Program-made: the position numbers and the translations under genes
The notes under the pieces: generated by a model
The model's input: only the letters and a program-made list of their open reading frames with translations
Told to the model about the DNA's origin: nothing
Database searches by the model: none
Assembly (NCBI GenBank): GCA_026225235.1
Contig: JAMFSK010000128.1
Location: forward strand, 62,001 to 126,000
Origin: Burkholderiales bacterium
Lineage (GTDB): Bacteria > Pseudomonadota > Gammaproteobacteria > Burkholderiales > Burkholderiaceae
Length of the DNA: 64,000 nt
Reading direction: 5' to 3'
Shown: one piece after another, positions 9,124 through 30,463 of the stretch
Position numbering within the stretch: the first letter of the stretch is position 1
Layout: the number at the start of each line of letters is the position of its first letter

Positions 9124-9948
9124 TCAATGGGTGCGGGCCGGGCTGACGTTGCTGGTCGGCACACGGGTCTTCGACGGATGGCCGATGCCGCCGTCCTGGA
9201 ACCAGTAGCCAAGGGCCATGAACACACCGCCACCGGCCAGATTGCCAAGGGTGACGAACAGCTCGTTGTGGACCGCGCCGGCAAGCGTGATTTCGGCCGG
9301 GTGATCGACCATCAGCGCGAGGGCGAACACGAACATGTTCGCGACGCTGTGCTCAAAGCCGCAGGCGACAAAGGCAAACACGGGCCAAAAGATCAGGCCC
9401 AGCTTGGCGCCATCGTTATTGGTACGTGCAGCCATCCAGATCGCCAGACACACGAGCCAGTTGCACAACAGGCCACGTGCAAACAGAGCCGGGCCCGGCG
9501 CGGCCATCTTCCCTGCGGCGATCTTCATGAACACGGGCAGACCGTCGGTCAGCAGCACACCACCGCCAGCCATATGAAGCAGCGCTGCCAGGATGACCGC
9601 GCCGATCAGGTTACCGATCCAGCAGACTACCCACACCAGCACGACCCCACCGATGCCGGTTTGTCCCCGCAGTGCGGCAAGCGGCATATACATCGCCGTG
9701 CCCGTGAACAGATCCGAGCCGGCAAAGACCACGATCGTCAACGCGCAGGCAAACACGCCGCCCATGACAAGGTGTACATAAGCCGGATCGACGTGCGCGC
9801 CAACCGAAATCATGAGGATGTCACCGAAGCCGATATAAGCTCCGGCCATGGCGGCGCCGATCAGGAACGCAAGCGGCGAGCGAAGGATGGTCGACACCTT
9901 GTGCGCGCCGACCTTTGCGAAATTATCGATGCTTTCTGCGTACATCAT
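9124..9948 (-). CDS. Formate/nitrite transporter (FNT) family channel
   Basis: A pentameric six-helix inner-membrane channel for formate, nitrite or similar small monovalent anions. The protein is 274 residues, normal for the family. It carries SPLAFLIGAAMAGAYIGFGD, FAGSDLFTGTAMYMPLA (the conserved half-helix constriction), and GFEHSVANMFVFALAL, whose histidine is the central pore residue of FocA/NirC channels. GGAG lies just upstream of two adjacent ATG codons, so the start may be at 9948 or 9945. It is divergent from a YdeP/FdhF-type molybdopterin oxidoreductase, with a perfect FNR-type box 77 bases before this start codon. That suggests oxygen-limited expression and a link to formate or nitrite. 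Formate versus nitrite cannot be decided from the sequence. Confidence 0.93.
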   Translation of the reverse strand: MMYAESIDNFAKVGAHKVSTILRSPLAFLIGAAMAGAYIGFGDILMISVGAHVDPAYVHLVMGGVFACALTIVVFAGSDLFTGTAMYMPLAALRGQTGIGGVVLVWVVCWIGNLIGAVILAALLHMAGGGVLLTDGLPVFMKIAAGKMAAPGPALFARGLLCNWLVCLAIWMAARTNNDGAKLGLIFWPVFAFVACGFEHSVANMFVFALALMVDHPAEITLAGAVHNELFVTLGNLAGGGVFMALGYWFQDGGIGHPSKTRVPTSNVSPARTH

Positions 9949-10024
9949 TGCTCCGTTATAAGGTCTCCCCTGCTCGACCGCGAACAGGGTGGTTGATTCA
10001 GGCGCAAGAATAGATCGGCAGAGT

Positions 10025-10038
10025 TTGATTTACATCAA
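10025..10038. promoter_or_regulatory. Perfect FNR/Anr box (TTGAT-N4-ATCAA)
   Basis: The sequence TTGATTTACATCAA matches the full FNR/Anr consensus on both half sites. It stands between the divergent FNT channel gene (77 bases before its start) and the ydeP-like gene (182 bases before its start). I could not place an unambiguous -10 at the spacing expected for a class II site, so which gene it controls is open. Confidence 0.75.
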
Positions 10039-10220
10039 CGAATTCGCAAGTTCTCGCGCGAAGCGCGCTCGCTTAAACTGTACTCCTCGCTGCAACAGCG
10101 TTCTGTACTCCTTTTTCGGCAATAGGCAGACTTAAGCTGCCAGCCTCGTATCTATTAAACGCGTTTTTTAACGGCGGCTGACAAGCTTAAACAACGCGCT
10201 TAGGCATAACAAGACATTCA

Positions 10221-12542
10221 ATGGCCAATTCGAAACACGACGCCCGCATCGAGCCTTACACGCATGCGGCAGCGGGCTGGGGTGCGCTCAAGCAGGTCGC
10301 TATCAATCTCGTGCGAGAGCGCGTGCCGGGCGCCAATTACAAGACGTTACTCAAGCAGAACCAGCCCGACGGCTTCGATTGCCCCGGCTGTGCATGGCCC
10401 GATCGCGAACATGCATCGACCTTCGAATTTTGCGAGAACGGCGTCAAGGCCGTCGCAGCCGAAGCGACAAGCAAGCGCGCCACGCCCGATTTGTTCGCCC
10501 GGTATACAGTGGCCGAGCTTATGCAGCAGTCGGACTACGAGCTCGAGTTTCACGGCCGGCTGACCGATCCGCTGGCGTACGATGCGGCCAGCGACAAGTA
10601 TCTGCCGATCGGCTGGGACGAAGCGTTTGCGCTGATCGCCCATCATCTGAAGCAGCTTGACGACCCGAACCAGGCCGCCTTCTATACGTCAGGCCGGGCT
10701 GCCAACGAGGCAGCCTTTCTGTACCAGTTGTTCGTACGGTTGTACGGCACCAATAATTTTCCCGACTGCTCGAACATGTGTCACGAGCCCACCAGCCGCG
10801 GCCTGCCGAAAACGGTCGGCGTCGGCAAGGGCACCGTCACCCTCGACGACTTCGAACACTGCGACACGCTGCTGATCTTCGGCCAGAACCCGGCGACCAA
10901 CCACCCGCGCATGCTCGGCGAGTTGCGCGAGGTCTCCCGGCGCGGGGCAACAATCGTCTCGATCAATCCGCTGCGCGAGCGCGGACTTGAGCGTTTCACG
11001 AGCCCTTCACATCCGAGCGAAATGCTCACGATGTCGAGCACCCCGATCGCCACGGTCTTCGTGCGCCCTAAACTCAGCGGCGACTTCGCCCTGATCAAGG
11101 CGATGGCCAAGTACGTGCTCGAGCGCGATGACGAGGCCGTCGAGAACGGTACCCAGCGCGTGCTCGACACTGGGTTCATCGCTGAACATACGACCGGCTT
11201 CGAGCTCTTCGCGGCCGATCTGCGCGCCGAGGACTGGGATCTGCTGATCGAGGAATCGGGCGTGCCGCGTGAAGAGATCGTCCGCCTCGCGGAGATCTAT
11301 ATCAAGGGCGAACGTGTGATCGTCACGTGGGGAATGGGTCTGACCCAGCACCGCAATGCGGTGTCGACGATCCAGATGTTGTCGAACCTGATGATGATGC
11401 GCGGCAATATCGGCCGCCGCGGTGCCGGCCTGTGCCCGGTGCGCGGCCATTCGAACGTGCAGGGCGACCGGACGATGGGGATCGAGGAGAAGCCTTCGGC
11501 CGCCTTCCTCGACCGTCTCGGCAAGGTCTTCGGCTTCGAGCCGCCACGTGAACATGGCTTTGACGTGGTCGAGACGATCCAGGCGATGCTCGAAGGCAAG
11601 GTCAAGGTATTCGTCGGTCTCGGCGGCAATTTCGCGATCGCCACGCCCGACACGCCGCGCACCTGGGAAGCGCTACGCGCCTGCGCGCTGACGGTCCACA
11701 TCACGACCAAGCTCAACCGAAGTCATCTGATTCACGGCGGCGACGCGCTGATTCTGCCGACGCTCGGCCGCACCGAGATCGACCTCCAGGACGGTGTCGC
11801 TCAGGGCGTAACCGTCGAAGACTCGATGAGCATGGTTCACATCTCCTACGGGATGAACAAGCCTGCCTCGCCGAAGCTGCTGTCGGAAACCGCAATCGTC
11901 GCGCGTATGGCCGAGGCCACCCTCGGCGACGACAAGGTCGACTGGCGCTGGTACGCGCAGGACTATGCGCGGATTCGCGATGCGATTGAACGCGTCATCG
12001 ACGGCTTCGACGATTTCAATGCACGGGTCGCGAAGCCAGGCGGCTTCCATCTCGGCGTCGCCTCGCGCGAACGCGTCTGGAAAACGGCCAGCGGCAAGGC
12101 GCAGTTCATTGCGAATGCGGTCGATACCGATACGCCCCTGCATCGCGCGCGCCAAAAGTACGGCGAGCAGTTGATGACCCTGATGACGACCCGTTCGCAC
12201 GACCAGTACAACACGACGATCTACGGGCCCGATGACCGCTATCGTGGTGTCTATGGGCAACGTCGTGTGGTCTTCATCAATCGGGCCGATCTCGACATGC
12301 TCGGTTTCGCCAACGGCGACTGGGTCGATCTGACCAGTGTCTGGGACGATACCGTCGAGCGCCGTGCCGATGGCTTCATGCTGGTCGAATATGACATCCC
12401 CCGTGGCTGCCTCGGCGCGTATTACCCCGAGACCAATCCGCTCGTGCCGCTCGACAGTTTTGCGATCGGTGCGGGAACGCCCGCATCGAAGTCGATCCCG
12501 GTCCTGCTGAGCCGCTCGCTCAAGGCGCCCCAGGCTCAATGA
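10221..12542 (+). CDS. ydeP: YdeP/FdhF-family molybdopterin-dependent oxidoreductase
   Basis: A cytoplasmic molybdenum enzyme of the family called oxidoreductase alpha (molybdopterin) subunit, related to formate dehydrogenase H; E. coli YdeP is linked to acid resistance, but its substrate is not established. The 773-residue length matches (YdeP 759). Characteristic stretches are DGFDCPGCAWPD, NNFPDCSNMCHEPTSRGLP, QNPATNHPRMLGELR, GRRGAGLCPVRGHSNVQGDR and TTRSHDQYNTTIYGPDDRY. The usual N-terminal four-cysteine Fe-S motif of FdhF is reduced to CPGCAWP plus FCENG. No selenocysteine codon is needed; the cysteine in NMCHEP occupies the likely metal-ligand region. It is preceded by a region with an FNR box and divergent from an anion channel. 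Confidence 0.93.
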   Translation: MANSKHDARIEPYTHAAAGWGALKQVAINLVRERVPGANYKTLLKQNQPDGFDCPGCAWPDREHASTFEFCENGVKAVAAEATSKRATPDLFARYTVAELMQQSDYELEFHGRLTDPLAYDAASDKYLPIGWDEAFALIAHHLKQLDDPNQAAFYTSGRAANEAAFLYQLFVRLYGTNNFPDCSNMCHEPTSRGLPKTVGVGKGTVTLDDFEHCDTLLIFGQNPATNHPRMLGELREVSRRGATIVSINPLRERGLERFTSPSHPSEMLTMSSTPIATVFVRPKLSGDFALIKAMAKYVLERDDEAVENGTQRVLDTGFIAEHTTGFELFAADLRAEDWDLLIEESGVPREEIVRLAEIYIKGERVIVTWGMGLTQHRNAVSTIQMLSNLMMMRGNIGRRGAGLCPVRGHSNVQGDRTMGIEEKPSAAFLDRLGKVFGFEPPREHGFDVVETIQAMLEGKVKVFVGLGGNFAIATPDTPRTWEALRACALTVHITTKLNRSHLIHGGDALILPTLGRTEIDLQDGVAQGVTVEDSMSMVHISYGMNKPASPKLLSETAIVARMAEATLGDDKVDWRWYAQDYARIRDAIERVIDGFDDFNARVAKPGGFHLGVASRERVWKTASGKAQFIANAVDTDTPLHRARQKYGEQLMTLMTTRSHDQYNTTIYGPDDRYRGVYGQRRVVFINRADLDMLGFANGDWVDLTSVWDDTVERRADGFMLVEYDIPRGCLGAYYPETNPLVPLDSFAIGAGTPASKSIPVLLSRSLKAPQAQ

Positions 12543-12701: not shown

Positions 12702-14099
12702 TTACAGAGCGCCGTGGTGGGCATGCACGTCTGCGTGCTGATCGAGCAGATGCGCGGTCAACTGAAGCGCTTGATCGCATTGTTCGCGATCAAGCGGCCC
12801 TCCGAGACATAGCCTCACCGCATTGGGTGATTCGAACGTCGTCGAGAACGCCGCGCTCGAGACGACCCCGACACCCTGTGCGCGCAACTGCGAGGCGAAC
12901 TCGCCCGGATGCCAGGGCTCGGGAAGCGGCAGCCACAGATGAAACGCATCGGGATGTGCCTGGTAGTCATGTCCGCGCAGATGCTCGGCCGCGAGCATCT
13001 GCCGCTCGTTCGACTCGGCGCGAATCGCGTTGAGCGCCGCTTCAGCGGTGCCATCGTTGATCCACCGCGTCGCAATCGCATTCGTCACGGGCGAGGCCAT
13101 CACGGTGGTGGCCCGCATCGCCCCGGCGAGTTGCTGGAGGCGGCGGCCGTCCGGCGGCTTCACGTAGGCGACCCGTACCCCCGCGCCCACACACTTCGAG
13201 AACCCCGCGATGTAGTAGGTCAGCTCGGGCGCCAACAACGCAAGCGGCTCGGGCATCTGGCGCGGCAGCATCGCATAGGCGTCATCCTCGATGATCGGCA
13301 CGCTATAACGCAGCGCGACATCGGCCAGCGCCTCGCGACGATGAGACGGAATGGTCGCCGTCGTCGGGTTCAACAGGGTCGGGTTGCAATAGAAGGCCCG
13401 AGGTTGAACGGTCTTGCAGGCGTCTTCGAAGGCAAGCACGCAGGGGCCGTCTTCGTCGAAAGGGAGCGGGTGCAACTTGATTCCCAGTTGCGTCGCGATC
13501 GCCTTGACGCCCGGATAGGTCAGCGCCTCAACACAGAGCACTTCGCCAGGACGCACCAGTTGCGACATCAGGCCAACCAGCACGCTGTGAATCCCCGAGG
13601 CGATCAGGATGTCGTCGGCGTGGATGCCGGGCAGCATCCGGCGCATCCAGCGCGCGCCGGCGGCACGATCGTCCTGACTTCCGCCGAAATCCTGATAGCG
13701 CAGCCACGCATACGGGTCCTGTTCGCGCAGCGCGAGCATCGCGCCCTCGCTGAGCCGGGCGAGTAACTCCGGTTGCCGGGGTTCGGGCGGCAGATTCATG
13801 CTCATTTCGGCCGCCGTGCCTGCGCGTAGCGGCAGGGAGCGACGCCGGCCGCGTACGAAGGTACCCATGCCGCTCTTCGCATCGATCAACCCGCGCCGGC
13901 TTGCCTCCGCGTAGCCACGGGCCACCGTCGTGTAGTTCAGGTTGAGCACGCGCGCCAGCTCGCGCAGCGGCGGCAAGCGGTCGCGTGCGGCGAGCCGGCC
14001 GGTCTCGACGTCTTCGGCAATGAGCTCGGCAATGAGCAAATAGGCCGGACTGCCGCCCGCTTCGATGCGTTGCGTCCAGTGATGCAAAGTTTCAGTCAT
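12702..14099 (-). CDS. MocR-type (GntR-HTH plus aminotransferase domain) transcriptional regulator
   Basis: A PLP-binding transcription factor: N-terminal winged helix of the GntR family (about 1-75, LPPLRELARVLNLNYTTVARG) joined to a fold-type I aminotransferase-like domain (about 110-460). The lysine expected to bind PLP is in YYIAGFSKCVGAGVRVAYV. I chose the start MTETLHHWTQRIEAG, because the ten residues before it in the ORF track are unlike the family. The 465-residue length is typical. It is divergent from the Nit1C cluster across 440 bases, and TTGATCGCAT motifs lie both just before its own start and before the first cluster gene. It probably regulates the cluster and itself; the effector might be PLP or an amino compound. 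It could equally be annotated as PLP-dependent aminotransferase family protein. Confidence 0.92.
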   Translation of the reverse strand: MTETLHHWTQRIEAGGSPAYLLIAELIAEDVETGRLAARDRLPPLRELARVLNLNYTTVARGYAEASRRGLIDAKSGMGTFVRGRRRSLPLRAGTAAEMSMNLPPEPRQPELLARLSEGAMLALREQDPYAWLRYQDFGGSQDDRAAGARWMRRMLPGIHADDILIASGIHSVLVGLMSQLVRPGEVLCVEALTYPGVKAIATQLGIKLHPLPFDEDGPCVLAFEDACKTVQPRAFYCNPTLLNPTTATIPSHRREALADVALRYSVPIIEDDAYAMLPRQMPEPLALLAPELTYYIAGFSKCVGAGVRVAYVKPPDGRRLQQLAGAMRATTVMASPVTNAIATRWINDGTAEAALNAIRAESNERQMLAAEHLRGHDYQAHPDAFHLWLPLPEPWHPGEFASQLRAQGVGVVSSAAFSTTFESPNAVRLCLGGPLDREQCDQALQLTAHLLDQHADVHAHHGAL

Positions 14100-14138
14100 G
14101 TCTCGGTCCTGGCGAATCAAAGATGCCAATCAAAGGGT

Positions 14139-14170
14139 TTGATCGCATCCCGTGTCGCCGTTGATCGCAT
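14139..14170. promoter_or_regulatory. Two direct TTGATCGCAT repeats upstream of the MocR gene
   Basis: TTGATCGCAT occurs exactly at 14139-14148 and again at 14161-14170, a start-to-start distance of 22 bases, about two helical turns. They lie 40 and 62 bases before the regulator start codon, a place suited to autoregulation. The same motif recurs before the Nit1C operon. Confidence 0.6.
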
Positions 14171-14433
14171 GCTTCATGCCACCGGGCGCCCCGCTTTGAG
14201 ACGCGGCGGCCTCGCTTCGCCCTCGCCCCGCGAGGCATTGCGAGCCGATCAAACGCCTGTCAGACACGCACCTTGACCTCGCATGACGCCCCCTTCCTGT
14301 GCGGGCGTGCCTGCGATCGCTTGCATCGCTGCGCCATCGGAGTGCGCCCGTTTGCTGGCCCCATGACGCGAGGGTCGCCGACTCAAGCAGAGGCGATGCC
14401 ACCACGCGGTTTTGCCTGCTCCATGATCGGAGG

Positions 14434-14455
14434 TTGATCGCATCCCCTGCGATCA
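14434..14455. promoter_or_regulatory. Palindromic copy of the TTGATCGCAT motif before the Nit1C operon
   Basis: TGATCGCA, five bases, then TGCGATCA forms a perfect 8-bp inverted repeat containing a third full TTGATCGCAT. It ends about 88 bases before the first cluster start codon. Together with the direct repeats near the divergent regulator, it is the best candidate operator for activation or repression of the cluster. Confidence 0.6.
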
Positions 14456-14459
14456 GTGA

Positions 14460-14475
14460 TGGCATGCTCCTCGCG
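14460..14475 (+). promoter_or_regulatory. Weak sigma-54-like promoter candidate for the Nit1C operon
   Basis: TGGCATGCTCCTCGCG keeps the GG-N10-GC spacing and much of the -24 element, but the -12 element is TCGCG rather than TTGCA. It lies five bases after the palindrome and about 68 bases before the first start codon. A nitrogen-control promoter would make biological sense, but MocR proteins usually act with sigma-70. Confidence 0.25.
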
Positions 14476-14542: not shown

Positions 14543-15025
14543 ATGCCAGCTGTTACTCATGCCGCCCACCAGAAAGGCGACTTTCTCGTCGACTACGAAG
14601 AGAAAGTATTCGAAGACGTCAAAGCACAACCCGGCGAGAAAGCCCTCGTCACCTTCCACACTGTCGCATTCGAAGGTTCGATCGGCTTCGTCAACTTGCT
14701 TCAGGCGACGCGCCTGCTGCGCAAGGGCTTCGAGACCTCGATCCTGCTCTATGGGCCTGGCGTCACACTCGGTGTCCAGCGCGGCTTCCCGACGTTGGGT
14801 GACGAAGCCTTCCCCGGCCATCTGAACTTCAACAAGCAGATCGTCAAGTTCATGGAGGAAGGCGGCAAGGTCTACGCCTGCCGCTTCGCGCTGCAGGCCC
14901 TGTACGGCCACGGCGAGCCTTCGCTGATCGAAGGCATCACGCCAATCAATCCGCTTGACGTGCTCGACCTGGTGCTGCTGCACCGGCGCGACAACGCGTT
15001 CATCCTCGATACCTGGACCCTCTGA
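14543..15025 (+). CDS. MSMEG_0572/Sll0783-family nitrogen starvation response protein (Nit1C member)
   Basis: First gene of the Nit1C cluster. The true start is [20 protein letters not shown], with GGAG nine bases upstream; the ORF track adds 29 spurious residues. The 160-residue protein is soluble and reads [43 protein letters not shown], and [20 protein letters not shown] recognise this as the Sll0783 family of Synechocystis, which was linked to nitrogen starvation and polyhydroxybutyrate accumulation. The fold resembles DsrE-like small proteins, and a cysteine (YACRFALQ) sits where DsrE family members often carry one; that last point is inference. Its biochemical role is unknown. Followed by the nitrilase after 18 bases. 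Confidence 0.9.
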
Positions 15026-15043: not shown

Positions 15044-16102
15044 ATGGCCTCATCTCGTATGGTTCGCGCCGCCGCTGTCCAGATCTCACCGGACTTCGAC
15101 GCGCCCGACGGCACCCTCAACAAGGTCTGCGAAGCGATCGACGAAGCCGCCGCGCGCGGCGCGCAGATCGTCGTGTTTCCTGAAACGTTCGTGCCCTACT
15201 ACCCGTACTTCTCGTTCGTGCGGCCGCCGGTCGCCGCGGGGGCGGACCATATGCGGCTCTATGAGCGCGCCGTGACGGTGCCCGGCCCGGTTACACAAGC
15301 GGTGGCCGAACGCGCGCGTGCGCGCGGTGTGGTCGTGGTGCTCGGCGTCAACGAGCGCGACTACGGCAGCCTGTACAACACGCAACTGATCTTCGATGCA
15401 AACGGAGCGCTCGCGCTCAAGCGGCGCAAGCTCACCCCGACGTATCACGAACGCATGATCTGGGGCCAGGGCGATGGATCGGGTCTCAAGGTAGTGGAAA
15501 CGGCCGTAGGGCGTGTCGGTGCGCTCGCCTGCTGGGAGCACTACAACCCACTCGCCCGCTACGCGCTGATGGCCGCCCACGAAGAAATTCATTGCAGCCA
15601 GTTTCCCGGTTCGCTGGTCGGACCGATCTTTGCCGACCAGATCGAAGTCACCATTCGCCACCATGCACTCGAGTCGGGTTGCTTCGTGGTCAACTCGACG
15701 GGCTGGCTCAGCGACGCGCAGATCCAGGCGATTACGCCCGATACCGGCTTGCAGCGCGCGCTACGCGGCGGCTGCCACACCGCCATCATTTCGCCCGAAG
15801 GCCAGCATCTGGCGCCACCGCTGACTGAAGGCGAAGGCATGGTCGTCGCGGATCTCGACATGTCGCTGATTACCAAGCGCAAACGCATGATGGACTCGGT
15901 CGGTCACTACGCGCGGCCCGAACTGCTGAGTCTCGCGATCAACGATCGCCCCGCCACGCCGACGTTTCCAATGCAGGACCCCACCGCTAACCATGAAGGG
16001 ATCCACGATGAGCCAAGCCACGTCCTCGCTGCCAGTCGAACCAACGCTGAGCAACCGGCAACTGATGACCGAGTTGCAGTCTTCCGGGCTGCGGCTGGTT
16101 GA
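15044..16102 (+). CDS. nitC: Nit1-type nitrilase (Nit1C cluster)
   Basis: Carbon-nitrogen hydrolase that converts nitriles to carboxylates and ammonia. The catalytic triad is visible: E47 in [17 protein letters not shown]129 in [15 protein letters not shown], and C163 in [17 protein letters not shown]. The CWEH context marks a true nitrilase rather than an amidase. In Nit1C clusters this enzyme belongs to the Nit6803/Nit1 group; in Pseudomonas fluorescens NCIMB 11764 the homologous cluster is required for growth on cyanide as nitrogen source. The protein is 352 residues; its last roughly 30 residues (from [10 protein letters not shown] on) are Ala/Asp/Asn-rich and are encoded in a 95-base overlap with the radical SAM gene. 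That tail is probably not part of the fold. Strong candidate for the core activity of this operon. Confidence 0.95.
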
Positions 16103-17135
16103 TCCGGATGCGGGTGCCCCGAGCCGTCGTGGTGGAGCGGGTCCTTCGGATCACAAGGCGGTGACGATCGCCGGACGGACCTTCATGGTGCCGGTCCATA
16201 CCTCGACGGCGTGGAGTTCACCGTATGTCGCGCAGCCCCTCGACGCGTCGGGACGCAGTACGCTGATGCGCGGCACGATCCCGATCGCGACGATCGAATT
16301 TCCAAAGCAACCCCGCTTCTATCGCCTGCAGACCTTCGACGGTGTGCCGTACTCGCATATCGCCACGCTGCACAGCGCCGATGTGCTCGCGACCACAGTA
16401 CTGCAAACCTGCATCCGCTACGAGAGCCGTCGCAAGGCCTGCCAATTCTGCTCGATCGGACAGTCCCTCGCGGCGGGTCGCACGATCGCCCGCAAGACCC
16501 CTGAGCAGCTCGCGGAGGTCGCACGGGCGGCGGTGCTGCTCGACGGCGTCAAACATATGGTGCTGACGACGGGTACGCCGAACGCGACGGATCGCGGCGC
16601 AGCGATCCTCGCCGAGAGTGCGTTTGCAATCAAGGCTGCGGTTGACCTGCCGATCCAGGGCCAATGCGAGCCGCCTGACGACGACGTCTGGTTCGCACGG
16701 ATGAAGAACGCGGGCATCGACACCTTAGGTATGCATCTCGAGGCCGTGACGCCCGAAGTGCGCGCGCGGATCATGCCGGGCAAGGCGACCGTGCCTGTCG
16801 AACGCTACCTCGATGCGTTCAAGGCAGCGGTCGAGGTGTTCGGCTGGGGTCAGGTCAGCACCTACATCCTCGCCGGTCTGGGCGATACGCCCGAAGCGAT
16901 CCTGAAGATGAGCGAGCAACTGATCGCGCTGGGCGTCTATCCCTTCGTCGTGCCCTTTGTGCCGATCAGCGGAACGCCGCTCGAAAGCCATCCCGCACCC
17001 GCACCGGAATTCATGAAGTCGATCCTGCAACCGCTCGGCGGCATGCTTAACCGTGCTTCCTTGCGCTCGGCCGACATCAAGGCGGGCTGCGGCAAGTGCG
17101 GCGCATGTTCGTCGCTCGCCATGTACGAGGACTGA
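16008..17135 (+). CDS. MSMEG_0568-family radical SAM protein (Nit1C member)
   Basis: A radical S-adenosylmethionine enzyme of unknown reaction, conserved in Nit1C clusters. The start [16 protein letters not shown] has an AAGGGA ribosome site and lies inside the end of the nitrilase gene. The cluster-binding cysteines appear as C135, C145 and C148 ([18 protein letters not shown]), a CX9CX2C spacing rather than the classical CX3CX2C. Then come a GTPNATDRG stretch (SAM-binding GGE-like region), [20 protein letters not shown], and [15 protein letters not shown]. The C-terminus holds [12 protein letters not shown], a second CX2CX2C motif that may bind another Fe-S cluster or a metal. It resembles biotin synthase/lipoyl synthase-type barrels in layout. 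It probably modifies a product or partner in the cyanide/nitrile route, but substrate is unknown. Confidence 0.92.
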
Positions 17136-17136
17136 T

Positions 17137-17697
17137 ATGTACTGTGACCTGCCCGCCGTTTTCGTGCCTTCGGAATACCGCGTCAAGCAGGCGACGCAGA
17201 GATGGGAATTTGCCCAAGCGTATGGGCTGCGGCGCGAGGTGTTTTGCGTCGAGCAGCGCGTGTTCGAAAGCGACGATCGTGACGAGATCGACACCCATGC
17301 AAGGCTGCTGGTTGCGCTTGCCTGCGTGGGAGGCACACCCGATCAGGTGGTGGGCACAGTGCGTATTCACGAAGCGTCGCCCGGCGTCTGGTGGGGCTCG
17401 CGGCTCGCGGTACATCGTGCGTTCCGGCGGCATGTGGGGCTTGGCACGACCCTGATTCATCTCGCAGTCGGCACCGCACGCGCGCATGGTTGCGACACCT
17501 TCTTTGCCCATGTGCAGAAGCAGAACGCCGAACTGTTCAAGCGCCTTCACTGGAACTGGCTCGCAGACGAAATGCTGTGCGACCGGCCGCACTGCCTGAT
17601 GTCGGCGGAGGTCGACTGGTATGCTCCGTGCCACGACCCGGAGTGGGGACTGGCGGCGGGCGTGACGGCCCCCGTCGCCTTGGGAGTGCCCGCATGA
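17137..17697 (+). CDS. MSMEG_0567/Sll0786-family GNAT N-acetyltransferase (Nit1C member)
   Basis: A GCN5-type acyltransferase with the acetyl-CoA loop in RLAVHRAFRRHVGLGTTLIHLAV (the Q/RxxGxG/A region). The start MYCDLPAVFVPSEYRVK is one base after the stop of the radical SAM gene, so the two are translationally coupled. The segment LRREVFCVEQRVFESDDRDEID is typical of this branch, which resembles homoserine-lactone-synthase-like GNATs. In Mycobacterium smegmatis this domain is fused to the AIR-synthase-like domain that follows here as a separate gene with an ATGA overlap, which supports physical partnership. At 186 residues it is a single domain. The acceptor is unknown; an amine or aminonitrile-derived intermediate would fit but is a guess. 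Confidence 0.9.
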   Translation: MYCDLPAVFVPSEYRVKQATQRWEFAQAYGLRREVFCVEQRVFESDDRDEIDTHARLLVALACVGGTPDQVVGTVRIHEASPGVWWGSRLAVHRAFRRHVGLGTTLIHLAVGTARAHGCDTFFAHVQKQNAELFKRLHWNWLADEMLCDRPHCLMSAEVDWYAPCHDPEWGLAAGVTAPVALGVPA

Positions 17698-18728
17698 ATG
17701 CCTGTGACCTCGCCACCGCGCTGCGCGAGACGCGCGGCTTCGCGCACAAGCGCGATATCCACGGCGTACTCGATGCCCTCGCCGGCGCCTTGCCGGGGGG
17801 CTTGCAAGACATGCGTCAGACGGTCGCGATCGGCGACGATTGCGCAGCGATTCCCGATCCCTCGGGCCACGGCTATCTGCTGTTTGCGATCGAAGGTTTT
17901 GTCGAAGACTTTGTGAAGGCCATGCCCTGGTTTGCCGGTTATTGCGGCGTCATGGTCAACGTCAGCGATATCTACGCCATGGGCGGCCGGCCGATCGCCA
18001 TCGTCGATGCGCTATGGAGCGACGGTCTGAATGGCGCCACGCCCGTTTTGCAAGGACTCGCTGAAGCCTCGGCGCGCTATGGCGTGCCGATCGTCGGCGG
18101 CCACAGCAACAACCGCAGCGATCGCGGCCAGCTCGCCGTCGCGATCCTCGGGCGCGCCGAACGCCTGTTGACGAGTTTCGATGCGCAGCCCGGCGACAAA
18201 CTGGTGTACGCGATCGATCTGCGCGGCGCTTACCAGGAGCCCTATGCATACTGGAACGCATCGACTGAGGCACCGGCAGAACGACTGCGTGGCGACCTTG
18301 AGGTCCTCCCCTTGCTTGCGGAAGGTGGCCTATGCGATGCAGGCAAGGACATCAGCATGGCGGGCGCGGTCGGCACCGCACTGATGCTGCTCGAAGCCTC
18401 CGGCTGCGGCGCGACAATCGATGCCGACGCCATCCCCAGGCCCCTCGGCGTGCCGATGCTGCGCTGGCTCACTTCATTTCCGAGCTACGGCTTCGTGCTT
18501 AGCGTGCGGCCCGAGCGGTGCGCCGCCGTGCTCGAGCGGTTCACGGAGCGTGGTATTGCTTGTGCGGTGGCGGGTGAGGTCGACGCGTCGACACGTGTCA
18601 TGCTCCAGACGCAGCGCGAATCCGCCTTGCTCTGGGAATTCGACAAGGCACCATTTATCGGCGCAGGCCCCGCAAGACACACGGAGTCCGTCGACACGCT
18701 TGCCTCGAACGGGTGCGCCCATGTCTGA
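17694..18728 (+). CDS. Sll0787/MSMEG_0567-family AIR synthase-related protein (Nit1C member)
   Basis: Member of the PurM/AIR synthase ATP-binding superfamily (with SelD, HypE, ThiL). It starts at MNACDLATALRETRGF in a 4-base ATGA overlap with the GNAT gene; the long N-terminal part of the ORF-track entry is out-of-frame GNAT sequence. The first half carries TVAIGDDCAAIP and FAGYCGVMVNVSDIYAMGGRPIAIVDALW, matching the PurM N-terminal motif (GxDDxA, NxxDIxAMGG). Then come VPIVGGHSNNRSDRGQLAVAILG and GGLCDAGKDISMAGAVGTALM. 344 residues is usual. PurM-family enzymes activate an oxygen atom (amide or formyl) with ATP, so it may phosphorylate a carboxylate or amide made by the cluster. Substrate unknown. 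Confidence 0.92.
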   Translation: MNACDLATALRETRGFAHKRDIHGVLDALAGALPGGLQDMRQTVAIGDDCAAIPDPSGHGYLLFAIEGFVEDFVKAMPWFAGYCGVMVNVSDIYAMGGRPIAIVDALWSDGLNGATPVLQGLAEASARYGVPIVGGHSNNRSDRGQLAVAILGRAERLLTSFDAQPGDKLVYAIDLRGAYQEPYAYWNASTEAPAERLRGDLEVLPLLAEGGLCDAGKDISMAGAVGTALMLLEASGCGATIDADAIPRPLGVPMLRWLTSFPSYGFVLSVRPERCAAVLERFTERGIACAVAGEVDASTRVMLQTQRESALLWEFDKAPFIGAGPARHTESVDTLASNGCAHV

Positions 18729-19869
18729 AGCCTCGTTGGCCATCGGGCTGCTCACACATTCGGTCAATCCGCGCGGCGGAGTGGTGCACTCGCTTTCACT
18801 CGCCGAAGCACTTGCTGCGCAGGGGCACGATGTCACCTTGTTCGTGCCGGCTCGACCGGGGGAGCAACTGTTTCGTCCGGCGAAGTGCGAGGTCGCGTAC
18901 GTGCCTGTGAAAGGTCCCGAGCACGACATCGTCTCGATGGTCGAGAGCCGGATCGACGCCTACTTCATGCATCTGGAAGCGCTGCTCCGCTCACGCCGTT
19001 TCGATATCCTGCACGCGCAGGACAGTATCAGCGGCAATGCGCTCGCGACGCTGCGCGCGAGCGGCGCGATCGAACACTATGCGCGCACGGTTCATCATCT
19101 CGACGAGTTTGACGATCCGCGACTGACGGCTTACCAGCTACGTGCGTTTGTCGAAGCAGATCAACTGATGTGCGTAAGCCACCTGTGGTGCCAGCACCTG
19201 AATGACGTCTATGGTCTCCATGCTACTCAGATTCAGAACGGCGTGGATACCGTGCGCTTCACGCCGCTCGCCTCTGCTCAAGACAACGAAGTCGCAGTGC
19301 GTCTGGGGCTCGGCAATGGTCCCGTCGTGGTATCGGTCGGCGGCATCGAAGCCCGCAAGAACACGGTTCGCTTGCTTGAAGGATTTCTCGAATTCCGTCG
19401 CACCCACGTGAACGCTCAGTTGCTCATCGCGGGCGGCGCGAGTCTGCTCGATCACGATGAATACAGCCGCACCTTTCATGCGCTTGCGCTGGCCGCCGGC
19501 CTGAATGAACAGACATTGAAGATCCTCGGCAAGGTTGCGGATGACGATATGCCTTCGCTTTTGCGTCTTGCCGACGTCGTGGCGATGCCCTCGATCCGCG
19601 AAGGCTTCGGCCTGGTCGCGCTCGAAGCGATCGCCAGCGGGACGGCCGCGCTTGTCTCGCGTATCGCGCCCTTCACCGAACATCTCGGCGAGGCCGACTG
19701 CGTGTTTGTCGACCCTTTCGACCCCGCGTCGATTGCCAAGGGTCTGTCGACTGCACTGTCGTTTCACGCCGATCACGCCTCGATTCCCGCGCGATTCTCC
19801 TGGGCTGCCAGCGCGGCCCGGCACGCGCACCTTTACCGCACCCTGTTGACTCAGCCGGAGCTGAACTGA
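18721..19869 (+). CDS. MSMEG_0565-family GT4 glycosyltransferase (Nit1C member)
   Basis: A GT-B fold, retaining glycosyltransferase. The start MSEASLAIGLLTHSVNPRGG overlaps the preceding stop by eight bases. N-terminal motif SVNPRGGVVHSLSLAEALAAQGHDVTLF is the acceptor-side Rossmann start. The C-terminal half shows VVVSVGGIEARKNTVRLLEGF and the sugar-nucleotide motif SIREGFGLVALEAIASG (E-x7-E). Length 382 is normal. Glycosyltransferases occur in most Nit1C clusters; what is glycosylated is not known. No membrane segments, so it is cytoplasmic or peripheral. Translational coupling on both sides (overlap before, TGATG overlap after) argues that it is an obligatory member of the pathway. Confidence 0.92.
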   Translation: MSEASLAIGLLTHSVNPRGGVVHSLSLAEALAAQGHDVTLFVPARPGEQLFRPAKCEVAYVPVKGPEHDIVSMVESRIDAYFMHLEALLRSRRFDILHAQDSISGNALATLRASGAIEHYARTVHHLDEFDDPRLTAYQLRAFVEADQLMCVSHLWCQHLNDVYGLHATQIQNGVDTVRFTPLASAQDNEVAVRLGLGNGPVVVSVGGIEARKNTVRLLEGFLEFRRTHVNAQLLIAGGASLLDHDEYSRTFHALALAAGLNEQTLKILGKVADDDMPSLLRLADVVAMPSIREGFGLVALEAIASGTAALVSRIAPFTEHLGEADCVFVDPFDPASIAKGLSTALSFHADHASIPARFSWAASAARHAHLYRTLLTQPELN

Positions 19870-20238: not shown

Positions 20239-21630
20239 ATGCCCGCATCCGTACCCGCCGCTCACCTCGTTCGTACCGCGCCCACGCTGCCCGACCGCGT
20301 TCGCGTAGCCGTCGTCGGGGGCGGTCAGGCCGGCCTCTCGCTGAGCTATTTTCTCCAGCAGCTTGGCATCGACCATATCGTGCTCGAGAAAAACACCGTG
20401 ACGCACACCTGGCGCAGTCAGCGCTGGGATGCATTTTCGCTCGTAACGCCGAACTGGCAATGCCAGTTGCCTGGCCACCCCTATGCGGGCGACGAACCGC
20501 ATGGCTTTATGAAGAAGGATGAAATCATCGACTACCTCGATGGCTTTATCGCAAAGGTCAACGCGCCCGTGCTCGAAGGGGTCACCGTGAAGCGGATCGC
20601 GCCGCAGCCGGAAGGGGGCTATGCGGTGGCGACAAGCGCGGGAGATTTCATCGCCGATCACGTCGTGGTCGCGTCGGGCGGTTATCACCAGCCGGTTGTG
20701 CCGCGCATGGCCGAACGCCTTCCGGCTCTCGTCACGCAGGTTCATTCCGCCGACTATCGCAACCCGCAGAGTCTGCCTGAGGGTGCAGTGCTCGTCGCGG
20801 GGTCCGGACAGTCGGGTGCGCAGATTGCAGAGGACCTGCACCTCGCCGGTCGCAAGGTCTACCTTGCGGTCGGTGACGCACCGCGCTGCGCACGCTTTTA
20901 TCGCGGCAAGGATGTGGTCGACTGGCTGGCCGAGATGAACTACTACGATATGCCTGTCGATGCTCACCCGCTCAAGGAAGGCGTGCGCGACAACACCAAT
21001 CACTACGTGACGGGACGCGACGGCGGTCGCGATATCGATCTGCGCAAATTTGCCAACGAAGGGATGGAACTGTATGGACGCATCGGCGGTTTCGATGGTC
21101 AGTACTTGCAGTTCGATACGAATCTGCGCGAGAGCCTCGATCGAGCGGATACGGTTTACAACGGCATCAACAGCTCGATCGATCGTTTCATCGAGAAGAG
21201 CGGCATCGACGCGCCTGCCGGCGGTACCTACGAGCCTGTGTGGACGCCCGAGTTCGAGCGGCCGCTGCTTGACCTCGCGGCTTCGGGTATCACGTCGGTG
21301 ATCTGGTGCATCGGCTTCATGCCTGACTTTGCGTGGATCGACGTGCCGGTGTTCAATGGACGCGGTGCGCCCATTCATCGACGCGGGATCACGCAGATTC
21401 CCGGGCTGTATTTTCTGGGCTTGCCCTGGCTCTATACCTGGGGCTCCGGGCGCTTCTCGGGCATCGCGCGGGATGCTGAATTCGTCGCGACGCATATCGC
21501 AACGCAGGAAACTCAGGGTGCGCAGGCGAGCCCAGGCATGGAGGGGATCGCGGGGACGCCAGCCGGCCAGCAAACCATGGCGGCCAACCTGCCCGGTGCC
21601 CAGCCGCGTGTGTCGGCGATGGCTGGATAG
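20239..21630 (+). CDS. MSMEG_0569-family flavin-dependent oxidoreductase (Nit1C member)
   Basis: A FAD and NAD(P)H-binding enzyme of the flavin-containing monooxygenase group. The start MPASVPAAHLVRTAPTL has AAGGA eight bases upstream. The FAD Rossmann motif is VAVVGGGQAGLSLSYFL (about 23-39), and the second nucleotide site is VLVAGSGQSGAQIAEDL (about 192-208). WRSQRWDAFSLVTPNW is the typical substrate-facing loop of the group. A C-terminal GLPWLYTWGSGRFSGIA contacts FAD. Length 463; the last 35 residues are Ala/Gly/Pro-rich and probably disordered. Gap of 76 bases before it is the longest within the operon. It likely performs an N- or C-oxidation in the cluster; whether it needs the ferredoxin encoded next is open, since NADPH alone would serve most relatives. 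Confidence 0.92.
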   Translation: MPASVPAAHLVRTAPTLPDRVRVAVVGGGQAGLSLSYFLQQLGIDHIVLEKNTVTHTWRSQRWDAFSLVTPNWQCQLPGHPYAGDEPHGFMKKDEIIDYLDGFIAKVNAPVLEGVTVKRIAPQPEGGYAVATSAGDFIADHVVVASGGYHQPVVPRMAERLPALVTQVHSADYRNPQSLPEGAVLVAGSGQSGAQIAEDLHLAGRKVYLAVGDAPRCARFYRGKDVVDWLAEMNYYDMPVDAHPLKEGVRDNTNHYVTGRDGGRDIDLRKFANEGMELYGRIGGFDGQYLQFDTNLRESLDRADTVYNGINSSIDRFIEKSGIDAPAGGTYEPVWTPEFERPLLDLAASGITSVIWCIGFMPDFAWIDVPVFNGRGAPIHRRGITQIPGLYFLGLPWLYTWGSGRFSGIARDAEFVATHIATQETQGAQASPGMEGIAGTPAGQQTMAANLPGAQPRVSAMAG

Positions 21631-25240: not shown

Positions 25241-26422
25241 TCAGTCCAGTGCCGTCGCCGGGCCGAAGAACTCGTAGTGACTCTGCGCGGCCGGCACGCC
25301 AAGCTCACGCAGGTGGTGCTTGATGGCCTTCATGAACGACAGTGGCCCGAGGAAGTAGACGTCGACATCGCGTGACGCCGGCAACCATTGGTTCAGCAGC
25401 TCGAGATCGAGCCGGCCGACCGCGTCCGGCGTCGCGTGGCTCGCGCGAAGTTCGGCATAACAGTAGAAGCGCTTGAGATGCGTGTGCCGCGCAGCCAGAC
25501 CATCGATCCACTCGCGGAAGGCATGCACACCGCCATGCCGCGCCGCATGGATGAAATGCACCGGCCGGCGTGTCTCCAGCGCGGCTTCGAGCATGGCGAG
25601 TGTCGGGGTGATACCCACGCCGCCGCTGATGAGCACCAACGGGCGTTCGCTCGCCTCGAGCGTGAAGTCGCCTGCCGGCGGATACACATCGAGTATCCCG
25701 CCCTGCACGATGGTGTCATGCAAGTACTTCGACACGGTGCCCTGCGGCTCACGCTTGACGCTGATTCGGTACGCGCCGGGGGTGCTCGCTGCCGACAGCG
25801 AGTAGTTGCGGCGCATCTCCTGACCATCGATCACGACACGCAGACCGATGTACTGGCCCGGACGGAAATCAAGCAGGGCCGCGCCATCGACAGGCTGCAG
25901 ATAAAACGAGGTAATCTCGTCGCTTTCGCTGACCTTGCGCGCCACGGTGAACTGGCGCGCGCCGCGCCAGCCGCCCGGTGCCTGGGCCTTGTGATCGTAG
26001 ATGCTGGATTCCGCGCCGATCAGCACATCGGCCAGTTGCTGATAGGCCGCGGCCCACGCTTCGATCACCGTGTCGGTCGCGATTTCCGCGCCCAGCACTT
26101 CGCGAATCGAACGCAGCAGGCAAGTGCCGACCAGCGGGTAATGCTCCGGCAAGATCTGCAGCGAGACGTGCTTGTTGACGATCTGCGAGACGAGACCGCC
26201 AAGCTGCTCCAGTTCGTCGATATGGCGTGCGTACATCAGGACCGCATTCGCCAGTGCACGAGGCTGGGCGCCCTGCGACTGGTGAGTCTGGTTGAACAGC
26301 GCTTTGACTTGCGGATATTCGTTGAAAAGCAATTGATAGAAATGGGTGGCCAGCGCCTCGCCCCCGCTTTCGAGCAGGGGAACCGTGGCTTTGACAATCG
26401 TGCGATGTTCAAGGGACAGCAT
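25241..26422 (-). CDS. hmp: Flavohemoglobin (nitric oxide dioxygenase)
   Basis: Converts NO plus oxygen to nitrate using NAD(P)H; also reduces NO slowly without oxygen. The 393 residues show a globin domain (about 1-138, MLSLEHRTIVKATVPLLES, ATHFYQLLFNEYP with the B10 tyrosine, IVNKHVSLQILPEHY with the proximal histidine). Next is a FAD domain (about 150-255, FRPGQYIGLRV, RRNYSLSAAS), then an NAD domain (about 262-393, VLISGGVGITPTLAML, VYFLGPLSFMKAIK). It is divergent from norR across 161 bases with NorR-type sites, and the truncated hemoglobin gene follows it. Regulation by NorR with sigma-54 is likely, but the -24/-12 element I can find is imperfect. Confidence 0.97.
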   Translation of the reverse strand: MLSLEHRTIVKATVPLLESGGEALATHFYQLLFNEYPQVKALFNQTHQSQGAQPRALANAVLMYARHIDELEQLGGLVSQIVNKHVSLQILPEHYPLVGTCLLRSIREVLGAEIATDTVIEAWAAAYQQLADVLIGAESSIYDHKAQAPGGWRGARQFTVARKVSESDEITSFYLQPVDGAALLDFRPGQYIGLRVVIDGQEMRRNYSLSAASTPGAYRISVKREPQGTVSKYLHDTIVQGGILDVYPPAGDFTLEASERPLVLISGGVGITPTLAMLEAALETRRPVHFIHAARHGGVHAFREWIDGLAARHTHLKRFYCYAELRASHATPDAVGRLDLELLNQWLPASRDVDVYFLGPLSFMKAIKHHLRELGVPAAQSHYEFFGPATALD

Positions 26423-26542: not shown

Positions 26543-26588
26543 GTCGATATGACCGGAGTCACATCGACCAGATTAGAGTCACTATGAC
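26543..26588. promoter_or_regulatory. Three NorR enhancer sites (GT-N7-AC)
   Basis: GTCGATATGAC (26543-26553), GTCACATCGAC (26558-26568) and GTCACTATGAC (26578-26588) each fit the GT-N7-AC NorR core. Three sites are also typical of NorR-controlled promoters in E. coli. The third covers the norR start codon at 26584, so NorR bound here should limit its own expression while acting on hmp from a distance. Confidence 0.75.
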
Positions 26589-28143
26589 CGCCAAAGCGCT
26601 TCTCGATATTCTGATTCCCCTGGTCGGTGATTTGTCGCGCGACATCCCGGAGCGCGACCGCTACGACCGTCTGCTCGACGCGATGCGCACGCTGTTCCCC
26701 TGCGACGCTGCCGCGCTATTGCGCCTCGAGGGCGAGATCCTCGTACCGGTTGCGATCGATGGCCTCAGCAACGACACGCTCGGACGCCGCTTTCGCGTGA
26801 GCGAACATCCGCGTCTGCAAGCGCTGCTCGCCCATCGCGGCGCCTTGCGCTTTCCGGCCGATTCGGACTTGCCCGACCCCTACGACGGGCTCGTACAGAA
26901 CCTCAGCGAGCGCCTCGAGGTGCATGACTGCATGGGGTGTGCCTTGCATGTCGCGGGGCGCCCCTGGGGACTGATGACGCTCGATGCACTCGACCGTGCG
27001 CGCTTCGACACGGTCGATGTGGCCTCGCTCGAAGCGTTCGCGAGTCTGGCTGCTGCCACGGTCAATGTGGTCGAGCACCTCGGCGTGCTCGCGAGCCGCA
27101 ACGAGCACGAGCGCCGGCGCGCCGAGGCCTACCGGATCGCCGCCTCGCAGACCGAGCACGAGATGATCGGACAGAGCGCACCGCACCGCCATCTGGTCGA
27201 TGAGATCCAGGTGGTGGGACGCAGCGAACTCACGGTACTGATCCTGGGTGAGAGCGGCGTCGGCAAGGAACTGGTCGCGCATGCCATCCATGCCGCCTCG
27301 GCGCGTGCCGACAAACCTCTGATCAGTCTGAACTGCGCCGCGCTGCCCGACACGCTCGTCGAGAGCGAGTTGTTCGGCCATGTGCGCGGTGCATTCTCAG
27401 GCGCAGTCAATGACCGGCGCGGCAAGTTCGATCTCGCCGACGGCGGAACCTTGTTTCTCGACGAGGTCGGTGAATTGCCGCTCGCGGTCCAGGCAAAGTT
27501 GCTGCGAGTCCTTCAGAGCGGTCAGTTGCAACGGGTCGGCTCCGATCGCGAACATCGCGTCGATGTCCGCCTGATTGCAGCGACCAATCGGAACCTGGCC
27601 GAAGAGGTCAAGCTCGGTCGCTATCGCGCGGATTTCTATCACCGGCTCACGGTGTATCCCTTATCGGTGCCGCCGTTGCGTGAGCGCGGCCGCGACGTGC
27701 TGCTGATCGCGGGATTTTTTCTCGAACAGAATCGCGCCAAGCTCGGGCTGCATAGCATCCGCCTCTCGCCCGACGCCCAAACTGCGTTGCTCGCTTATCC
27801 CTGGCCTGGCAATATCCGCGAACTTGAACATCTGATCGGCCGCACCGCCTTGCGTGCGCTTGCCGTGCAACCTATACGGCCGCGCATCCTGACGCTGACA
27901 GGGGCCGACCTCGACCTGCCCGCGGACACTGCCGGTGCGGGCAAGCCGAACCACGTCGCAGCACCTGGTCCAGGCGGCGATCCGGGTGTCCCGGATCTAC
28001 GCCGGGCCCTGGCCGACTACGAACGCCAGTTGATTCGCGACAGCCTCGAACGACATCAAAACAACTGGGCCTCGGCCGCGCGCGAACTCGGAATGGATCG
28101 GGCGAACCTGAGCCGCTCGGCGAAGCGGCTCGGGCTCAAGTAG
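26584..28143 (+). CDS. norR: NorR, nitric oxide-responsive sigma-54-dependent activator
   Basis: An NO sensor and enhancer-binding protein. N-terminal GAF domain (about 20-170) senses NO through non-heme iron in known NorR; the AAA+ domain (about 190-425) drives sigma-54 open complex formation; a Fis-type HTH ends the protein (NNWASAARELGMDRANLSR). Walker A is LGESGVGKELVA, Walker B is GGTLFLDEVGEL, and the sigma-54 contact loop reads GAFSGA instead of the usual GAFTGA, a conservative change. Between AAA+ and HTH is a Pro/Gly/Ala-rich linker (about 440-475). It is 519 residues, close to E. coli NorR (504). Divergent from hmp; its start codon lies within one GT-N7-AC site. No norVW or norB is present in the window, so hmp and the truncated globin are the obvious local targets. 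Confidence 0.95.
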   Translation: MTAKALLDILIPLVGDLSRDIPERDRYDRLLDAMRTLFPCDAAALLRLEGEILVPVAIDGLSNDTLGRRFRVSEHPRLQALLAHRGALRFPADSDLPDPYDGLVQNLSERLEVHDCMGCALHVAGRPWGLMTLDALDRARFDTVDVASLEAFASLAAATVNVVEHLGVLASRNEHERRRAEAYRIAASQTEHEMIGQSAPHRHLVDEIQVVGRSELTVLILGESGVGKELVAHAIHAASARADKPLISLNCAALPDTLVESELFGHVRGAFSGAVNDRRGKFDLADGGTLFLDEVGELPLAVQAKLLRVLQSGQLQRVGSDREHRVDVRLIAATNRNLAEEVKLGRYRADFYHRLTVYPLSVPPLRERGRDVLLIAGFFLEQNRAKLGLHSIRLSPDAQTALLAYPWPGNIRELEHLIGRTALRALAVQPIRPRILTLTGADLDLPADTAGAGKPNHVAAPGPGGDPGVPDLRRALADYERQLIRDSLERHQNNWASAARELGMDRANLSRSAKRLGLK

Positions 28144-30251: not shown

Positions 30252-30463
30252 CGCATTGCGCTCCATGTCCATGAGAAGAGAAGTCGAAGAGAAAAATGGG
30301 CCGACGCCGTCACGCCATCGTATCGCCTGCCAACCGGGGCGTCGCGACACAGATCGCGGGCGTCCTAAGCGATTTCCAGGAGGATATGCGAGGTTGGCAT
30401 CGAAGTTGCATTTCATTCATGAATAACCTACTTACCCAAACCAAACGCAAGAGGAGTGCCAGT

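Follow-up and report, generated by a model that had tools for sequence, protein, structure and literature searches.

When the Nit1C gene cluster was described in 2005, its upstream regions were remarked to have no identifiable conserved binding sites (PMC1199592). The question raised by the locus studied here is whether a ten-base word, TTGATCGCAT, repeated between a Nit1C cluster and a divergent mocR gene, represents a regulatory site of this kind and, if so, for which regulator. We analyzed a 64,000-nt stretch of Burkholderiales bacterium contig JAMFSK010000128.1 (GCA_026225235.1; genome of 6.1 Mb), hereafter the window. A first-pass annotation of the window had proposed a MocR operator composed of a 22-bp direct repeat and a palindrome, with a role in autoregulation and in control of the cluster. 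The gene identities behind this proposal were confirmed: the mocR product carries both domains that define the MocR subfamily (Pfam PF00392 and PF00155), and the Nit1C set nitB-nitC-nitD-nitE-nitF...nitH is complete, with seven family models above cut-off (Table 1). Beside mocR (9124-12542), a NirC/FocA-like formate/nitrite transporter gene is divergent from a gene for an FdhF/YdeP-type molybdoenzyme. Formate handling near mocR would fit a nitrilase/cyanide cluster; no FdhF/YdeP-type molybdoenzyme was found in the flanks of the relatives' clusters.

Table 1. Genes and candidate regulatory elements of the mocR-Nit1C locus (window coordinates)
Feature	Position	Strand	Remarks
mocR	12702..14099	-	GntR-type wHTH and class I/II aminotransferase-like domain, EhuR/EnuR-like; divergent from nitB
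MocR box A1, exact TTGATCGCAT	14139..14148	+	mocR-proximal; candidate operator box
MocR box A2, exact TTGATCGCAT	14161..14170	+	22 bp (two helical turns) from A1
NtrC-like palindrome TGCGCC-ATCGGA-GTGCGC	14330..14347 (core 14331-14345)	+	129 bp upstream of -24 element
MocR box B1, ATGATCGGAG	14423..14432	+	11 bp upstream of B2; missed by the first-pass annotation
MocR box B2, exact TTGATCGCAT	14434..14443	+	start exactly 26 bp upstream of sigma-54 -24 element
Inverted arm TGCGATCA	14448..14455	-	window-specific, doubtful function
Sigma-54 promoter TGGCATG-N4-TCGC (-24/-12)	14460..14474	+	83 bp upstream of nitB ATG
nitB (MSMEG_0572/Sll0783 family)	14543..15025	+	TIGR04044, 294 bits
nitC, Nit6803-family nitrilase	15044..16102	+	TIGR04048, 582 bits
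nitD, radical SAM protein	16011..17135	+	TIGR04043, 607 bits
nitE, GNAT acetyltransferase	17134..17697	+	TIGR04045
nitF, AIR-synthase-like	17694..18728	+	TIGR04049, 474 bits
MSMEG_0565-family glycosyltransferase	18721..19869	+	Nit1C cluster member; TIGR04047, 459 bits
nitH, flavin-dependent oxidoreductase	20248..21630	+	TIGR04046, 672 bits

Three exact copies of TTGATCGCAT, all on the plus strand, lie within 305 bases, precisely where they had been reported (boxes A1, A2 and B2). Dinucleotide shuffles yield an expectation of 0.26 copies per 64 kb, at least three copies would fall in a given 305 bp with a probability of ~3e-10, and this 10-mer alone among those of the window has three copies within such a length. 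The 10-mer has 53 exact copies genome-wide, but nowhere else are they clustered within 305 bp. Its frequency speaks for chance repetition of a common word, but this explanation has virtually no probability left given the clustering, and the conservation across species described below already refutes it. A fourth exact copy, absent from the first-pass annotation (12771-12780), lies inside the 3' end of mocR in codons for Cys-Asp-Gln; it was rejected as a site, being probably incidental.

The first two copies are indeed direct repeats near the MocR start, spaced by 22 bp from start to start. When up to three mismatches are allowed, this pattern has 3 matches in 6.1 Mb, two of them at this locus (0 and 2 mismatches); the third (C130:109224, 3 mismatches) was set aside because the number of such matches is close to the chance expectation. 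A weaker partner with 2 mismatches, located 22 bp 3' of the third copy (14456-14465), proves to be the sigma-54 -24 element. On the minus strand, just upstream of the mocR ATG (14112-14135), the near-copies TTTGATTGGC and TTTGATTCGC point toward mocR and are 13 bp apart; they resemble MocR boxes in reverse orientation, at a spacing that recurs among relatives.

Scanning one genome per species, we found 65 MocR relatives with 51-66% identity, nearly all encoded beside Nit1C, whereas no other MocR of the genomes tested exceeds 38%. These proteins thus appear to form an orthologous group that goes with Nit1C. TGATYGSA boxes are present upstream of nitB in 65 of the 66 dereplicated beta- and gammaproteobacterial MocR-linked clusters, with at least two boxes in 62; a box lies no more than 70 bp upstream of the -24 element in 61 of 64. 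Conversely, all five clusters without MocR lack boxes on both strands; four of these have a divergent NitA-type enhancer-binding regulator, and one comes from a genome without a MocR match. The association has a Fisher p of 5e-7, although this value is only a guide, since relatives are not independent and several of the controls are closely related. Conservation of the motif upstream of orthologous Nit1C clusters with a MocR was the refutation test attached to the original proposal, and on this comparison (65/66 vs 0/5) the motif is upheld. The sole boxless MocR-linked cluster has a MocR with only 45% identity that is not divergent. In that locus (L083, ~1340-1400), a long inverted repeat, ATTTAATTGTATGCATGCAATTAAAT, is located just upstream of the sigma-54 promoter and is possibly a MocR operator of a different type.

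The comparison also reveals the structure of the array. In 47 dereplicated beta/gammaproteobacterial regions, 178 TGATYGSA boxes are on the nitB strand and 14 on the opposite strand, compared to ~4 and ~3 in shuffles; the enrichment over shuffles is ~49-fold. The spacings between boxes peak at 11, 13 and 22 bp. The 22-bp repeat of the first-pass annotation is present but is just one of three recurrent spacings, and it was dropped as the defining one because 11 and 13 bp are commoner among relatives; similar 22-bp pairs occur in L004, L005, L007, L015, L030, L041 and L081. In ten relatives (genomes of 3.5-10.8 Mb), tandems of similar spacing have 1-3 matches per genome, most of them at nitB, and the 11-bp tandem of boxes B1 and B2 is the only match to TGATYGS-N3-TTGATYGSA in the 6.1 Mb genome. 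Boxes proximal to mocR are found in 38 of 45 relatives. Thus, boxes repeated at one or two helical turns lie near both the regulator gene and its putative targets and are conserved in orthologues, as is expected of a MocR operator.

The perfect palindrome beside the Nit1C promoter region, TGATCGCA (14435-14442)-N5-TGCGATCA (14448-14455), exists as described, but its role as an operator did not withstand the comparison. The inverted arm is matched at 8/8 positions only in the window; elsewhere it reaches at best 6/8, in 5 of 37 representatives and mostly shifted (by 3 bp in Paraburkholderia-type relatives), most relatives being little above background, and the conserved boxes are direct repeats. 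We therefore abandoned the palindrome as the main operator. The original model, i.e., a palindrome plus 22-bp repeat through which MocR regulates itself and nit1C with no special promoter, draws on the presence of both elements and on the prevalence of the direct-direct-inverted arrangement, which at 32% of regulons is the most frequent structure of MocR motifs (PMC5320631). Nevertheless, we consider it improbable because reverse boxes are rare, a sigma-54 promoter is conserved at nitB, and boxes are gone from mocR where this gene has been relocated.

This promoter, which starts 26 bp downstream of the start of the third copy, had been overlooked. The window sequence, TGGCATGCTCCTCGC, retains the invariant GG and GC of TGGCAC-N5-TTGC but has TCGC rather than TTGC at -12. 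A TGG...GC anchor, nearly always TGGCAY with NTGC, is present in 83 of 84 nitB upstream regions and is common to MocR- and NitA-type clusters, whatever the neighboring regulator, so its assignment as a near-universal sigma-54 promoter of nitB is well supported. The positions of boxes relative to TGGCA peak at -26 (35 of 47 relatives) and -37 (22 of 47), and the conserved order upstream of nitB is TTGATYGSNNN, TTGATCGCAT, N16, TGGCAY-N5-TTGC. Accordingly, comparison shows that the boxes hold a fixed position against the predicted promoter. Two more sigma-54-like sites, TGGCATCGAAGTTGC (+) and TGGCACTCCTCTTGC (-), are located face to face elsewhere in the window (30395-30461).

Changes in gene order separate the two roles proposed for MocR. 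In one genome (G191), a porin-like gene is inserted between mocR and nitB, yet the boxes remain. In seven genomes, mocR is at the far end of the cluster; boxes are kept at nitB, and no box was found in the 500 bp upstream of the relocated mocR. Methyloversatilis and its relatives (L138-L144) show this arrangement, with mocR at the downstream Nit1C end, its own boxes gone and those of the nitB promoter kept. Control of nitB thus appears to be the conserved function, whereas autoregulation is probably confined to divergent arrangements: plausible in this window, as had been proposed, but not general, given that the boxes are gone from mocR in 7/7 relocated cases. Taken together, the tracking of boxes with mocR strongly supports the motif as a MocR recognition element, with TTGATCGCAT as a member of a conserved array of tandem binding sites, and also supports the proposed MocR control of the Nit1C cluster; the protein bound is presumably MocR itself. 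The same observation bears on the alternative that an unlinked sigma-54 activator uses the boxes as its enhancer sites. Their placement upstream of a sigma-54 promoter with no activator gene nearby would agree with this, but box presence follows mocR, the boxes reach to -26 from the -24 element, too near to it for enhancer sites of the usual sort, and an NtrC-like site is present in addition, so that we regard this alternative as very improbable.

In alphaproteobacterial clusters, the MocRs have ~43-51% identity, and the boxes are altered and more scattered. At loci L093-L103, the boxes drift to TTGAATG/TTGTATG as the MocR wHTH changes from L..NY to Q..DF; MocRs with Q..DF pair with TGWATG boxes, and those with L..NY pair with TGATYG. 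As a recognition code, this covariation was rejected and is only suggestive, because it is confounded with clade and a protein with L..DY retains TGATYG.

A sigma-54 promoter requires an enhancer-binding ATPase, and the MocR lacks such a domain. A NitA-type adjacent enhancer-binding protein was not found at this locus; the only such gene near the cluster encodes NorR (743 bits), ~5 kb past Nit1C. The norR gene is divergent from that of the flavohaemoprotein Hmp (26584-28143 and 25241-26422); NorR and Hmp are a nitric-oxide detoxification pair that likewise uses sigma-54. With this NorR as query, no enhancer-binding protein gene was detected near the cluster in 56 long loci of relatives, and a NitA query gave one more distant match. 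A candidate activator site, missed by the first-pass annotation, is the NtrC-like palindrome of Table 1. The window copy agrees with a TGCACC-N5-GGTGCA-like consensus at 10 of 12 positions and, taken alone, is at the chance level (0.5 expected in the window). Such palindromes occur in 28 of 49 MocR-type regions against 0.9 expected (-70 to -220), at distances near -127, -138, -149, -160 and -171 that keep helical phase, with which the window copy at -129 agrees. The enrichment is strong in beta/gammaproteobacterial relatives, and nine alphaproteobacteria are at background. An exact NtrC site combined with an exact sigma-54 promoter has no match in this genome. Thus, given the degenerate window site, the alphaproteobacterial background and the missing exact pattern, the activator may not be NtrC. 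The genome does encode an NtrC-like protein (430 bits over 263 of 463 NtrC positions, interrupted by a contig end), and nitrogen control of Nit1C has a precedent in Mycobacterium smegmatis, where msmeg_0572, the nitB orthologue, is preceded by a region to which the global nitrogen regulator GlnR binds (PMC4222082). NtrC as the activator, and its input at nit1C, are what the site distribution leads us to infer.

The array and the adjoining promoter suggest that MocR acts as a gate on a promoter that nitrogen starvation turns on. We consider it reasonably probable that NtrC and sigma-54 drive the nit1C promoter and that MocR gates it in a pathway-specific manner, with the tandem boxes as its sites. 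Under this model, each TTGATCGCAT box would be recognized by one monomer of the EhuR-like MocR encoded in divergent orientation, and the boxes would be read head to tail, 11, 13 or 22 bp, i.e., one or two helical turns, apart. The central pair (14423-14443) would adjoin the promoter that transcribes nitBCDEF...H. When nitrogen is limiting, an enhancer-binding protein (most likely NtrC, at the palindrome) would loop to sigma-54 RNA polymerase, and MocR, located between enhancer and promoter, would hold the promoter off. Release would follow when a signal compound of nitrile/cyanide metabolism, an amine or an amino acid, forms an aldimine with the PLP of MocR, as in EnuR. The outcome would be an AND gate that requires nitrogen starvation together with substrate; autoregulation through the boxes next to mocR (14139-14170) would come in addition, but only where mocR and nitB are divergent. 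The repressive sign and the nature of the effector are proposed by analogy. GabR and PdxR are MocRs that can activate, so repression is not a given.

Conversely, MocR could be an architectural co-activator that bends the DNA between enhancer and promoter, its ligand-bound form being needed for nit1C expression. IHF is commonly located between enhancer and promoter at sigma-54 promoters, and here the box pair lies between the NtrC-like site and the -24 element at fixed helical phase. Activation by known MocRs such as PdxR also speaks for this possibility, as does the view that a head-to-tail MocR dimer lends itself to binding spaced direct repeats and looping the DNA (PMC5320631). We nonetheless regard it as rather unlikely because EnuR, the nearest characterized relative, is a repressor and the cio MocR of Pseudomonas pseudoalcaligenes is a putative one. 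Whichever the sign, it is likely that MocR controls the sigma-54 promoter and replaces or supplements a dedicated enhancer-binding activator, i.e., a regulator swap in which a PLP-dependent amine sensor would gate enhancer-promoter looping.

The closest characterized MocR type is the ectoine-catabolism repressor EnuR/EhuR/EutR: the product scores 390 bits against the NCBIfam EhuR model NF052286, below its cut-off of 480, and six Nit1C-linked relatives score 327-445 bits. The translation contains a GFSK motif (SK/AK in relatives) with a candidate PLP-binding lysine. EnuR is a PLP-dependent repressor whose documented operator, located over a sigma-70 promoter, has the inverted repeat ATTGT-N6-ACAAT (PMC8739950). 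The system described here shares with this type an ATTG-like half-site and, putatively, PLP-dependent control of a neighboring catabolic cluster. It differs in having tandem TTGATCGCAT direct repeats, a promoter of the sigma-54 class and nitrilase genes in place of ectoine genes; the EnuR/EhuR inverted repeat was not found at the locus, which has direct TTGATYGSA repeats instead. Direct repeats spaced by full helical turns are familiar from other MocR operators (PMC5320631). The operators of GabR, TauR and PdxR share this arrangement but differ in box sequence, in the 11/13-bp tandem spacing and in the sigma-54 context. In Pseudomonas, the sigma-54-dependent NitA adjoins nit1C (PMC11049912). 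Like the MocR studied here, NitA is a divergent regulator of nit1C, and NitA-like clusters have the sigma-54 promoter at the same position; however, NitA is a Fis-family enhancer-binding protein, whereas MocR has no AAA+ domain and NitA-type clusters have no boxes. The putative repressor MocR of cio/nit4 in P. pseudoalcaligenes CECT5344 (PMC8567248) is similarly linked to cyanide and nitrilase metabolism, but it controls cio/nit4, and nit1C of that strain has NitA.

Of the publications that name both MocR and Nit1C, those consulted concern this different, cio/nit4 MocR. In the open-access literature searched, we found no description of a MocR acting at a sigma-54 promoter and none of a MocR beside Nit1C; it should be noted that the supplementary tables of Suvorova and Rodionov could contain the group. 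The present comparison now supplies predicted upstream sites for Nit1C, namely MocR boxes, a sigma-54 promoter and an NtrC-like enhancer. Two unrelated regulators, MocR and NitA, appear to alternate on one promoter architecture, where MocR would have to act without its usual sigma-70 contacts. These findings predict that cyanide and nitrile assimilation would be under combined nitrogen and substrate control in Burkholderiales and beyond.
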